Source: an uncultured Clostridia bacterium
Lineage (GTDB): Bacteria > Bacillota > Clostridia > Oscillospirales > Ruminococcaceae
Length of the DNA stretch: 36,079 nucleotides
Direction: 5' to 3'
Assembly (NCBI GenBank): GCA_947627455.1
Contig: CANQWC010000024.1
Coordinates: forward strand, 1 to 36,079
Both the position numbers and the translations under genes were made by a program. The notes below the pieces were generated by a model, which had not been told where the DNA came from, did no database searches, and worked only from the letters and a program-made list of their open reading frames with translations. Positions 32,716 to 36,079 of this stretch are shown piece after piece. Positions within the stretch are counted from its first letter, which is position 1, and each line of letters starts with the position of its first letter.

Positions 32716-33930
32716 ATGTCTAAAATCATTATGAAAACCCCGCTCGTTGAGATGGACGGCGACGAGATGACAAGAGTTATCTGGAAGATGATAAAGGAGC
32801 AGCTTATTGAGCCTTACGTCGACCTTAAAACCGAGTATTACGACCTCGGGCTGGTTCATAGAAACGAGACCGACGACCAAGTCACCGTCGATTCGGCCGA
32901 GGCGACAAAAAAATACGGCGTAGCTGTCAAGTGCGCGACCATCACCCCGAACGCCCAGCGCGTCGAGGAGTATAAGCTTAAGGAGATGTGGAAGTCTCCG
33001 AACGGCACCATCAGGGCGATTTTGGACGGCACTGTCTTCCGCAAGCCGATAATCGTCAAGGGTATCACGCCGTTTATTCCGACATGGACCGAGCCGATAA
33101 CCATCGCGCGTCACGCTTACGGCGACATCTATAAGAATACCGAGCTTAAAGTGCCCGAGGGCGCAAAGGCCGAGATCGTAATCACCGACAAGGACGGCAA
33201 CGAGACAAGGGCGCTGATCCACGACTTCAAGAACAGCGCGGGAATCGTTCAGGGCGTACACAACCTCGACAGGTCGATTGCGAGCTTTGCGCGCTCATGC
33301 TTCAATTTCGCCCTCGACGCCAAGCAGTCGCTTTGGTTCGCCGCAAAGGACACCATCTCGAAGACCTATGACCACCGCTTCAAGGACATCTTCGCGGAAA
33401 TTTTTGAGGCGGAATATAAAGAGAAATTCGCCGAGGCGGGAATTGAGTATTTCTATACCCTCATCGACGACGCCGTGGCGAGGGTAATCAAGAGCAACGG
33501 CGGGTTCATCTGGGCATGCAAGAACTATGACGGCGACGTTATGAGCGATATGCTCGCGACCGCCTACGGTTCGCTCGGACTGATGACCTCGGTGCTTGTC
33601 TCGCCTGACGGCAACTATGAATACGAGGCCGCACACGGGACCGTCACCAGACACTATTATAAATGGCTCAAGGGCGAGAAGACTTCGACAAACCCGATCG
33701 CGACGATTTTTGCATGGAGCGGCGCTCTTCGCAAGAGGGGTGAGCTCGACGGCATCGATGAGCTCTGCGACTATGCCGACAAGCTTGAAAAAGCGTCGGT
33801 AGAGGCCATCGAGAGCGGAATTATGACGGGCGACATGGCGGCGCTCTCAAAGCTTGAAAACAAAAAATCGGTCTATACCGAGGAATTCCTCGGCGCGATT
33901 GCTGAAAGGCTTCGGGAGCTCATGAAATGA
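32716..33930 (+). CDS. icd: NADP-dependent isocitrate dehydrogenase (eukaryotic-type)
   Basis: 404 residues. Oxidative decarboxylation of isocitrate to 2-oxoglutarate, making NADPH. The N-terminal [47 protein letters not shown] is the hallmark of the homodimeric NADP-IDH class shared with eukaryotes, distinct from E. coli Icd. Substrate-site [19 protein letters not shown] and the NADP region [10 protein letters not shown] (about 300-309) are intact. GAAAGGATG precedes the ATG at 32716. Its stop overlaps the DUF2441 start. Confidence 0.95.
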
Positions 33931-34508
33931 TTTTGTATCACATGAGCGACACGCTTTGCGTCGGTGATGTTCTCAAAAGAGATTTCAAAGATAATCTTTC
34001 CCTTGCCGAGCCGTTTGTCAAGGCGCTCACGGTGAGCGAAGAATGTTTTAATTCCGTATTTTTGTCGGCGAAATATCTCAGGGCTTCGCTGAAAAAATTC
34101 GGCCTCTGCGATATGCAGACCGACCACATAAAATGGGCGGCCGAGGGTATTTTTGAATACATCAGGCGGGCGGAATTCCCGAAACTCCCCTGCCGCCTCA
34201 CGGGGTCGTATTTCTTCGACAGCATTGAAAGCTGCCGCGAGCTTTTCGAGGAGGACTGGGGAAGCGCCTCGGAAGAAGAGCACTCGAAGATCAGGCTTTT
34301 TGAAGTCGAGCTCGACGACAGCGCCCCGAGAAAGTTTGACATGCGGCTGTTTGATGAAGCCTATGACCTTTTGTGGGAGAACGAAAACCCCGCGGAGATA
34401 ATACCCATCGCGAGAAAGTATTTTTCGGGCGAGATAGTCGGCACCGCAGAGATACTCAGCGAGGCGCCCGCGCGGGTCATTCGGGATATAACAGATCAAC
34501 TTAGATAA
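33927..34508 (+). CDS. DUF2441 domain protein
   Basis: 193 residues, soluble. [20 protein letters not shown] … [61 protein letters not shown] and the closing [11 protein letters not shown] follow the DUF2441 pattern. Function unknown; the fold is thought to be related to RES/ADP-ribosyl-type small domains, but no catalytic set can be shown here. It is last gene of the aconitase operon (ATGA overlap with icd) and is followed by a strong terminator. Confidence 0.8.
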
Positions 34509-34516
34509 AAGCACTT

Positions 34517-34565
34517 GCCCCTCTGACATGAGAATTTGTTTCTTGTGTCGGAGGGGCTTTCTTTT
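34517..34565 (+). terminator. Strong terminator closing the aconitase–IDH–DUF2441 operon
   Basis: GCCCCTCTGACA … TGTCGGAGGGGC (one G-T pair), with an inner GAGAA/TTTCTT extension, then TTTCTTTT. It separates the core operon from the peptide array on the right, so the array needs its own promoter. None is convincing in 34566-34738. Confidence 0.93.
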
Positions 34566-34632
34566 CGGGTTTTGAACGATCGGAACGGCTGTATTGAATA
34601 TTTTTGACGCAGATGACAAGGCACTGACGAAA

Positions 34633-34710
34633 AATTACTGCACTTATGCTGCGAGCGTTGCCCTTCCCGTTGAAGATGAATTATCTCTGTATTGCATGGC
34701 GGGGCTCTGA
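34633..34710 (+). pseudogene. 5'-truncated relic of a double-glycine peptide gene
   Basis: In the frame ending with TGA at 34708-34710 the sequence reads NYCTYAASVALPVEDELSLY then CMAGL, clearly homologous at DNA and protein level to the C-terminal part of the next gene (YCTYAASEALPLGDEFEALY then CML). No leader, start codon or first half of a core precedes it; upstream the frame runs to a TGA at 34573 with unrelated sequence. It is therefore the tail of a lost sixth member of the array, stranded about 70 bp beyond the terminator of the neighbouring operon. Confidence 0.7.
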
Positions 34711-34738
34711 AAGCTTTTTGAACCAGGAGGAAAAGAAT

Positions 34739-35065
34739 ATGGCTAAAGAAATCAAAGAAAACGAACTTACAAATGCCGCGGGCGGCGACAGAGTCATCAA
34801 CGACCTGAACACGGGCATTCTCAGCGACTTTGCAAACACCATCGGCGACCCCGCTATCATTGAGTTTCTCGGCCTTAAAAGGCATAACAGGCTCGATGCC
34901 GCGGATAACTGCCCGATGTTCAAGCCCACAGGTCTGCCCGGCATGCACAACAACGAATTCTGCCGCTACTGCACTTATGCGGCAAGCGAGGCTCTTCCCC
35001 TTGGCGATGAATTCGAGGCGCTGTATTGCATGCTTTTTGAAACAGGAGGAAAAGAATATGGCTAA
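34739..35065 (+). CDS. Double-glycine-leader Cys peptide precursor 1 (read-through C-terminus)
   Basis: 108 residues. Leader MAKEIKENELTNAAGG (1-16) ends in the Gly-Gly typical of C39-peptidase-processed bacteriocin/RiPP leaders. The predicted core is residues 17-108 with DPAIIEFLGLKRHN (37-50), Cys58, Cys75-xx-Cys78 and Cys97. The final LFETGGKEYG comes from what is the spacer and ribosome-binding site of the next gene. The normal 'CM(A/L)GL-stop' ending was lost, apparently by a 15-bp deletion, and the stop TAA now overlaps the next start by 8 bp. AGGAGG lies before the ATG at 34739. No modification enzyme is in the window, so whether Cys residues form disulfides, thioethers or a metal site is unknown. 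Confidence 0.8.
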   Translation: MAKEIKENELTNAAGGDRVINDLNTGILSDFANTIGDPAIIEFLGLKRHNRLDAADNCPMFKPTGLPGMHNNEFCRYCTYAASEALPLGDEFEALYCMLFETGGKEYG

Positions 35066-35327
35066 GGAACTTAACGAAACGGAACTTAACAACGCGTCGG
35101 GCGGATATACCGCCACTAACGTTATCACCGACCCGCAGATAATTGAGATACTCGGCCTGAAAAAGCATGACGAGAACGAGAACGCAAAAGACTGCCCGTC
35201 TTATACGGTGTCGCCGTTTGAAGACCCCGAAGATGTTTATTGGCATAAAAAATGCCGAAACTGCGCTCATGCGGCATATTCCCCTCTTGTGGCAGAGCAT
35301 GTGATTTTCTGTATGCTCGGCCTTTGA
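35058..35327 (+). CDS. Double-glycine-leader Cys peptide precursor 2
   Basis: 89 residues. Leader MAKELNETELNNASGG (1-16), nearly the same as the first gene's. The core carries DPQIIEILGLKKHD (25-38), Cys46, Cys66-xx-Cys69, HAAYSP and a terminal C85MLGL. It is the closest relative of precursor 1: both share DPxIIExLGLKxH and the C…CxxC…C layout, with different spacing between the first two cysteines (17 versus 20 positions start to start). AGGAGG precedes the ATG at 35058. It looks like an intact, uninterrupted member and is the best reference for the array. Confidence 0.82.
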   Translation: MAKELNETELNNASGGYTATNVITDPQIIEILGLKKHDENENAKDCPSYTVSPFEDPEDVYWHKKCRNCAHAAYSPLVAEHVIFCMLGL

Positions 35328-35353
35328 AATCTTTTAAATCGGAGGAATTTGAA

Positions 35354-35605
35354 ATGGCAAAGGAATTACTTGACAAGGATATCGAAGCCGCAAGCGGCGG
35401 CACGGTGAATCCGAACTGCATCGACTATCATACATATTGCAAGCTCGGGCTTAAATTTCACGATATGAAAGACGTCTGCGACGACTTTGTGATGATGCCC
35501 ACGGTTACGAACCCCCGCGATGCGTGTATGAACTACCTTTACGGCGCTATTGTTTTTGACCAAGAAATTCGTAAATCGGGAATAGCCTGCATGATAAATC
35601 ATTAA
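35354..35605 (+). CDS. Double-glycine-leader Cys peptide precursor 3
   Basis: 83 residues. Leader MAKELLDKDIEAASGG (1-16). The core begins TVNPNCIDYHTYCKLGLKFHD, keeping the LGLxxH element, and has Cys22, 29, 42, 58 and 79. The CxxC seen in the others is here CMNY, so the pair is broken while two extra N-terminal cysteines appear. It ends CMINH. GGAGG lies eight bases before the ATG at 35354. The leader is conserved while the core has diverged strongly, the usual sign of diversifying secreted peptides. Confidence 0.8.
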   Translation: MAKELLDKDIEAASGGTVNPNCIDYHTYCKLGLKFHDMKDVCDDFVMMPTVTNPRDACMNYLYGAIVFDQEIRKSGIACMINH

Positions 35606-35618
35606 GGAGGACTAAATA

Positions 35619-35909
35619 ATGACAAAAGAAATCAATGACGAAATGATGGAAAAAGCGGCAGGAGGAACGCCGTCGGCTTTCATAACTTGGGACACCCTTA
35701 ACCTGCTCGGCCTGACGGTCCACGAAGAGGATGACACTTGCGAATCCTTTAAAATGAATAATGTGTTTGAGCTGACCAAAGATCGTGACGACGAAGGCCT
35801 ATGGAGCTATAATCACGAATATAATACCTGCTACTTCTGTTTTTACAGCGCGTGCGTGATAGATCCGCGCACATACAAGAGAACCTATTGCTGCTTCTTG
35901 AAAAAGTGA
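35619..35909 (+). CDS. Double-glycine-leader Cys peptide precursor 4
   Basis: 96 residues. Leader MTKEINDEMMEKAAGG (1-16). The core has TWDTLNLLGLTVHEEDDTC (LGLxxH kept; Cys41), then YNTCYFCFYSACV with Cys71-xx-Cys74 and Cys79. The end is basic, YKRTYCCFLKK, with Cys91-Cys92. At six cysteines it is the most Cys-rich member. AAGGAGG lies eight bases before the ATG at 35619, 13 bp after the previous stop. Confidence 0.82.
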   Translation: MTKEINDEMMEKAAGGTPSAFITWDTLNLLGLTVHEEDDTCESFKMNNVFELTKDRDDEGLWSYNHEYNTCYFCFYSACVIDPRTYKRTYCCFLKK

Positions 35910-35922
35910 GGAGGACATCATT

Positions 35923-36079
35923 ATGGCAAGAGAAATCAACGATGAGATGCTTAAGGATACGTCTGGAGGACTGGAAACGGCGTTTATATGCGTGGATACA
36001 TATTTAGGGCACCACCGCATAATTCCGCTTATAAGCAGTTTTGTAGTAGCAAAGCTGTGTATACGGCATATCGCTTCAT
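35923..36079 (+). CDS. Double-glycine-leader peptide precursor 5 (partial, cut by window edge)
   Basis: 52 codons are visible. Leader MAREINDEMLKDTSGG (1-16) is close to that of precursor 4. The core starts LETAFICVDTYLG, aligning with precursor 4's SAFITWDTLNLLG, but then continues HHRIIPLISSFVVAKLC without the LGLxxH and DxC elements. It may be a more diverged core or may contain an indel; the +2-shifted frame over about 36015-36079 reads FCSSKAVYTAYRF, faintly like the CxxC region of the others. The same 13-bp spacing and GAGGA ribosome site as in precursor 4 show it belongs to the array. Confidence 0.7.
   Translation, partial: MAREINDEMLKDTSGGLETAFICVDTYLGHHRIIPLISSFVVAKLCIRHIAS

Follow-up and report, generated by a model that had tools for sequence, protein, structure and literature searches.

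What are the small, cysteine-rich genes that stand in tandem at the right-hand end of this Clostridia contig, and what could act on their products? The window, meaning the whole stretch of DNA analysed here, is the entire contig C24, which is 36,079 nucleotides long, stops at 36079 and comes from a genome of 1.99 Mb in 40 contigs. At the right end of the window, on the + strand, we found an array in which four small genes are complete and only the beginning of a fifth is present, all of them opening with a double-glycine (GG) leader. The features of this region are as follows.

34517-34557, + strand: terminator-like hairpin 5' of the array, an 18-pair stem followed by a T-rich tail
34594-34710, + strand: open reading frame upstream of gene 1, a 5'-truncated remnant of a sixth copy (core tail without a leader)
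34739-35065, + strand: array gene 1, 16-residue GG leader and 92-residue core with four core cysteines that fit the four-cysteine signature given below
35058-35327, + strand: array gene 2, 16-residue GG leader and 73-residue core with four cysteines
35354-35605, + strand: array gene 3, 16-residue GG leader and 67-residue core with five cysteines
35619-35909, + strand: array gene 4, 16-residue GG leader and 80-residue core with six cysteines
35923-36003, + strand: native 5' part of array gene 5, leader and about 11 core residues
36004-36079, no strand assigned: repeat terminus, 99-100% identical to the ends of contigs C3, C16, C32 and C33

Tandem duplication at a contig end

The array was built by tandem duplication, with the leaders conserved and the cores diverging around fixed cysteines. 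Genes 1 and 2 overlap by 8 bases, the DNA at 34636-34785 aligns with that at 34967-35104 (73% identity, E 5e-24), and genes 4 and 5 share 41 bases around their starts at 78%. The remnant upstream of gene 1, a sixth copy absent from the preliminary description of this DNA, matches the family profile at 34633-34701 (E 0.069). Between genes 1 and 2, dN and dS were 0.18 and 1.16 in the leader and 0.57 and 1.27 in the core; for a gene pair in the relative G021 they were 0.07 and 0.52 in the leader and 0.35 and 0.53 in the core, all of these being rough values from short alignments. Leader dN was lower than core dN in all four gene pairs compared.

The five leaders of identical length that the preliminary description had quoted are all present, in frame and on the + strand, each behind a strong ribosome site of the GGAGG/AGGAGG type. 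Its count of five consecutive genes is correct for four complete ones, but the fifth has only about 27 native codons before the repeat; likewise, cores of 67-92 residues with 3-6 cysteines describe the four complete genes (67-92 residues, 4-6 cysteines) but not gene 5. The cores had also been called different from one another, and variable they are, but their common cysteine pattern and DNA self-similarity mark them as homologous and not unrelated.

From about 36004 the sequence is that of a repeat, which cuts gene 5 short and brings the contig to an end. Since its frame enters the repeat so early, we rejected gene 5 as a further variable core. Four other copies of the repeat were found in the genome, every one at the end of a contig, and the repeat breaks the assembly at this point.

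In the source genome, the array comes after icd and a DUF2441 gene, the latter a small gene at 33927-34508, between icd and the array, with a sub-threshold match to that family. A fixed site for the array in the genus was rejected: neither the DUF2441 gene nor an array was found in 9 of 9 congener stretches after icd, two of which are short and end about 1 and 2.5 kb beyond it. Therefore, the array is a lineage-specific insertion or rearrangement. A hairpin scan gave two sites of the kind seen at 34517-34557, against 1.8 in shuffled sequence, and the evidence that this hairpin is a terminator closing the upstream gene is suggestive only.

The leaders carry a C39 recognition pattern

Relatives of the array genes were collected as 53 leader-bearing ORFs, picked by leader pattern and ribosome site and not by cysteines. 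Three were dropped (an overlapping non-gene ORF, the cut window gene 5 and a gene cut by a contig end), and five more were then removed, four of them from a subfamily with 17-residue leaders and 8-9 cysteines and one a near-duplicate, leaving 45. The selection used GG and a hydrophobic residue at -7; positions -12, -8 and -4 played no part in it. Among the 45 relatives, position -12 was I or L in 44, position -8 was D or E in 40 and position -4 was A in 33, and leader length was 14-16 residues in 44. The window leaders have I or L at -12, mostly E or D at -8 (M in genes 4 and 5), L, I or M at -7, a small residue at -4, and GG, and the same pattern recurs in 37 long Nif11-like leaders of the same loci. 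Window leaders and relatives alike thus display what is expected of a C39/PCAT substrate: hydrophobic residues at -12 and -7, an acidic residue at -8, a small one at -4, and GG. For comparison, the leader consensus in PCAT1-CtA is L(-12)xxxE(-8)L(-7)xxxxGG (PMC6959990), and in LahT a hydrophobic groove takes up Val-4, Leu-7 and Leu-12, no more than 13 leader residues being needed (PMC6363468).

Searches with leader models gave little. PF10439 and TIGR01847 each matched 3 of the 45 relatives weakly (best 3e-4 and 0.0012, respectively). The five window proteins had only sub-threshold leader matches in NCBIfam (the highest reached 14.6 bits, where the cut-off is 29), and none exceeded the cut-off of a curated bacteriocin model. 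Unlike NHLP/Nif11 precursors, the window peptides had no match at E up to 10 to either leader model of those families (TIGR03798 and TIGR03793). As judged by such models, the array peptides fall outside the Nif11/NHLP precursor families and outside curated bacteriocin families.

The cores share four cysteines

Of the 45 relatives, 41 carry the signature C-x2-[FY] ... C-x2-C ... C (among the complete window genes, three of four), compared with 1.3% of shuffled cores; in gene 3 the C-x2-C pair is broken (CMNY). Because this frequency is far above that of shuffled cores, and because of the DNA self-similarity, the likeness within the array is more than chance.

The core family had been described as unrecognised, and no family model that we searched names it. 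None of the five window proteins matched a Pfam family at E up to 10, and the one match in PHROGs was at chance level (0.23). A sequence search of the PDB returned nothing significant; the best match was a high-potential iron-sulfur protein (HiPIP), a resemblance that we rejected as evidence at E 0.72. Gene 2 was predicted, with fair confidence, to be compact (pLDDT 82.6), and comparison of the predicted core model with the PDB gave no fold match. Known metal-binding mini-protein folds (HiPIP, zinc finger) therefore showed no significant match by sequence or by fold. In the general NHLP, Nif11 and PCAT literature, represented largely by titles and the beginnings of abstracts, we found no description of this peptide family.

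A transporter and a radical-SAM enzyme are encoded on contig C12

An exporter had been predicted in the sequence to the right of the array; the contig ends there, and the candidate lies instead on contig C12. A search of the genome found a single C39 domain, in a C12 protein that scores 912.1 bits against TIGR03796, the NHLP exporter model (ABC1 peptidase-permease-ATPase, here PCAT), over the cut-off of 853.3. The preliminary reading of the array products as exported, protease-processed peptides is supported by this C39-bearing transporter together with the recognition pattern in the leaders; the outcome that it had named in advance as fatal, a genome with no protease for GG leaders anywhere, did not occur.

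The neighbours of the PCAT gene on C12 are an ABC2-like gene, a STAS gene, an HlyD-like fragment, and RsbW-like, LytS and LytTR-like genes. Upstream lies a gene for a 475-residue radical-SAM/SPASM protein, between genes for cysteine-rich precursors with GG leaders; at least two of these precursors are Nif11-like, at scores below the cut-off (19-26 bits against 32.3). A member of the array family is located inside this same locus (C12:3594-3821, E 5e-8). The enzyme has Radical_SAM and SPASM domains over their Pfam cut-offs, and none of its 25 best NCBIfam matches listed is over its own (the best is TIGR04250, 120 bits against 400; PapB, 58 against 340), so that, among these 25, no characterised peptide-maturase family claims it. 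A full ABC2 partner (TIGR03797) falls short of its cut-off in the source genome, at 536.7 against 709.4 bits; in the relatives G018 and G302, ABC2 is a 727-residue protein. C12 opens (L002:1-342) with three head-to-tail copies of a 114-nt unit, two of them identical and the third at 82%, and the precursor and radical-SAM genes follow downstream of these copies.

Linkage and co-occurrence in relatives

On one contig of G018 (C8), genes for ABC2 (727 residues), PCAT, LytS/LytTR, short-GG peptides, MATE, formyltransferase and SpoIIE lie together with further short-GG genes, the first array-family match being about 4.5 kb from PCAT. Another contig of this genome (C57) carries radical-SAM, Nif11-like and short-GG genes, and the repertoire of G018 as a whole comprises 22 divergent short-type matches plus 12 long-leader precursors. 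In G302, from the same family, ABC2, PCAT, the radical-SAM enzyme, ten Nif11-like precursors and short-GG genes are all on one contig. In G412, the four-cysteine core type is found on long Nif11-like leaders near an ABC2-like gene (L144:2069-2873, contig C8), a case of leader exchange. Because of the same-locus linkage to PCAT in G018 and G302 and the G412 case, and because a family member lies within the C12 locus, we think it probable that the array encodes cargo proteins of an NHLP-type PCAT, with the leader cleaved, the core exported and, possibly, modified by the radical-SAM enzyme.

Among 31 genomes of the genus, the peptides occur in 6, the radical-SAM gene in 6 (as fragments only in G019 and G021) and a C39 domain over the cut-off in 7. 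By a test that ignores kinship, the peptides go with the radical-SAM gene (5/6 versus 1/25, p 2e-4) and with C39 (4/6 versus 3/25, p 0.014), as does the radical-SAM gene with C39 (5/6 versus 2/25, p 7e-4). There are exceptions: G017, listed as 99% complete, has the peptides without the radical-SAM gene and without C39; G010, also listed as 99% complete, has them without C39; and G002 and G045 have C39 without the peptides. The family itself was rare where it was sought: 6 of the 31 genus genomes have it at E up to 0.01, and at E up to 1e-4 it is present in six of the 394 genomes sampled from the order and in two of the 391 from the class.

We also compared seven complete radical-SAM genes (source genome, G010, G015, G018, G302, L039 and L040), and in four of the seven a short-GG gene lies no more than 6 bases downstream, overlaps or continues in frame. 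The in-frame case is in G010 (L036:1086-2705, contig C4), where the reading frame of the radical-SAM gene, for want of a stop codon, continues through a whole short-GG peptide, for which a separate ribosome site and ATG are also present; this continuity, seen once, may be mere stop loss. Elsewhere in G010 (L134:82-621, contig C11), two family peptide units share a single open frame, and the first of them has GS instead of GG.

Related enzyme loci in other genomes

A scan of named genomes for the enzyme was taken to the best 80 of 108 loci (L038-L117), the nearest of these 80 being in MAGs named 'Lapin', the French word for rabbit. By tblastn at E up to 1e-8, PCAT was detected in 47 and ABC2 in 43 of the best 80 of 108 loci, counts to which any ABC transporter may add. 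Forty-four of the same 80 hold 156 GG-leader precursors, an approximate number, as small ORFs were chosen by a home-made score of length and ribosome site. Zinc-ribbon-like cores with two C-x2-C motifs are present in 89 of the 156; shuffling gives 11.7 on average and at most 21.

Two unusual gene arrangements were seen along the way. A 569-residue gene (L140:4938-6647, L032:3400-5109 and L034:3609-5318) reads as a MATE transporter with an RsbW-like HATPase_c_2 domain at its end; in L032 and L140, the two copies that were scanned, both domains exceed the Pfam cut-off. At L143:8862-18719 (G124, contig C1), short cysteine-rich genes with GG leaders alternate with genes of 412-438 residues, and the one of these larger genes that was scanned has a STAS domain and a sub-threshold match to LCM methyltransferase.

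Decay of the system in this strain

Thirteen G018 proteins were compared with the C12 locus (L002:3892-15717). Twelve were matched. Over the length compared, the frame stays open in six of them (PCAT, radical-SAM, STAS, RsbW-like, a 156-residue protein and part of LytS), and the other six are disrupted or shortened. ABC2 lacks 235 residues in frame, the HlyD-like and LytTR genes have one stop each, MATE lacks about 140 residues and has one stop, SpoIIE is split over three frames, and only residues 1-110 of the formyltransferase are left; the thirteenth protein, DUF142, is absent from C12. Broken parts are also seen in G015 and G021. For all these breaks, those on C12 included, assembly error in draft genomes may be an alternative source. 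The array shows decay of its own, with gene 5 cut, the sixth copy truncated and gene 3 short of a cysteine. Because the locus is partly decayed, activity of the system in this strain is uncertain.

Discussion

In the mechanism that we propose, the 16-residue leader would be about a minimal C39 signal: its amphipathic stretch would settle into the peptidase-domain groove by way of residues -12, -7 and -4, the peptidase would cleave directly behind the double glycine, and the cysteine-rich core of 67-92 residues would be exported, the candidate exporter being the PCAT encoded on a contig separate from the array. Cleavage after Gly16 and export of the cores are likely, given the leader anatomy and homology with LahT and PCAT1. 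Whether the SPASM radical-SAM enzyme of the same system modifies some cores before export we judge to be about an even matter. With part of the machinery decayed in this strain, the array could be a relic or could depend on PCAT alone.

Other readings of the array have to be weighed against this one. One is that the array encodes class II double-glycine bacteriocins of the classical sort, antibacterial proteins that leave through the C39 transporter without modification; the type and size of the leader fit this, as do the weak matches that some relatives have to leader models of bacteriocins. We consider this unlikely: those matches are confined to leaders and the cores have no significant similarity to any bacteriocin model, up to 22 divergent family genes occur in one genome (G018), an unsystematic look beside the arrays turned up no immunity gene, and the tie to the radical-SAM gene is strong. 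Intracellular cysteine-rich proteins with GG at residues 15-16 by chance and no leader at all would be compatible with a cleavage that is so far inferred, but the constant leader length, the C39 motif and the PCAT linkage in G018 and G302 make such an account very improbable. A stronger candidate, to which we give slightly less than an even chance, is that the peptides are RiPP precursors whose cores the co-occurring SPASM enzyme cross-links before export, as in ranthipeptides or sactipeptides. The co-occurrence of peptides and enzyme, their adjacency in four of seven complete loci with one in-frame read-through, and the conserved cysteines all argue for it. Against these stand an enzyme below NCBIfam equivalog cut-offs among the 25 best matches listed, an unmodified gene 2 product that is predicted to be fairly compact with no cross-link needed, and the presence of peptides without the enzyme in G017; cores of 47-92 residues, moreover, are long for ranthipeptide or sactipeptide products.

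The cysteines could also belong to secreted mini-proteins in which the four residues bind metal or form two disulfides, with the radical-SAM enzyme serving only the Nif11-like precursors. The four-cysteine signature in 41 of 45 relatives, the compact predicted model and the two-CxxC cores in 89 of 156 precursors around the enzyme family (11.7 on average when shuffled) point this way, but there is no significant PDB sequence match (best E 0.72) and no fold match, and metal binding is suggested by analogy only; we regard this reading as possible, if on the doubtful side. A similar, tentative weight goes to the array being a non-functional relic of a decayed system in this strain. Six of 12 matched machinery genes are broken, a repeat has entered gene 5 and the sixth copy is truncated, but four array genes keep full frames with strong ribosome sites, dN is below dS for leader and core in genes 1 and 2, and the PCAT and radical-SAM genes are open over their length.

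Cargo of an NHLP-type PCAT, the reading we prefer, has precedents. By analogy, the array would work like the PCAT1-CtA and LahT-LahA systems. CtA of Clostridium thermocellum (PMC6959990) has a 24-residue leader and a 66-residue cargo, close to the 16 plus 67-92 residues found here, and shares with the array the L-12/E-8/L-7/GG leader consensus and a single-chain C39-ABC transporter; unlike PCAT1/CtA, the present system has many divergent cargo genes in arrays, conserved cargo cysteines, a linked radical-SAM gene and an NHLP ABC2 partner. LahT with LahA1-9 (PMC6363468) likewise pairs one C39 transporter with many diverse cores behind conserved GG leaders, but the LahA1-9 leaders are Nif11-type, whereas those here are 16 residues long and not Nif11-type, and the lah products are lanthipeptides, whereas in the loci read here, short of a dedicated search, no lanthionine enzyme was seen. 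The likeness to the NHLP/Nif11 export system lies in a PCAT over the NHLP exporter cut-off. Precursors of that system may lie far from the machinery and have hypervariable cysteine-rich cores, and their NHLP and Nif11 leaders average 83 and 70 residues, compared with 16 here (PMC2887384). Prochlorosins resemble the array in having one enzyme per genome for many diverse precursors; they have Nif11 leaders and the promiscuous ProcM, in whose place stands a radical-SAM enzyme here, its modification being putative.

The secretion system looks like one of a known kind, with a cargo type that looks unfamiliar. A broader proposal, which we rate as rather unlikely, is that one SPASM radical-SAM enzyme and one PCAT serve a large, fast-diverging repertoire on 15-16-residue and ~60-residue Nif11-like leaders, the cores being folded mini-proteins on the C-x2-[FY]...C-x2-C...C frame and together forming a new class of exported, radical-SAM-tailored cysteine-knuckle proteins. 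Such a class, if real, would be a protein-sized counterpart of prochlorosins. If our preferred interpretation is right, the array is a genome-encoded library in which many cargoes share a single export signal and exporter, and perhaps a single tailoring enzyme, and it would offer a large natural set for learning what SPASM radical-SAM enzymes accept. It would also mean that folded cargo of protein size, rich in cysteines, is handled by the NHLP/PCAT systems of gut Clostridia on a leader of 15-16 residues, close to the minimum.
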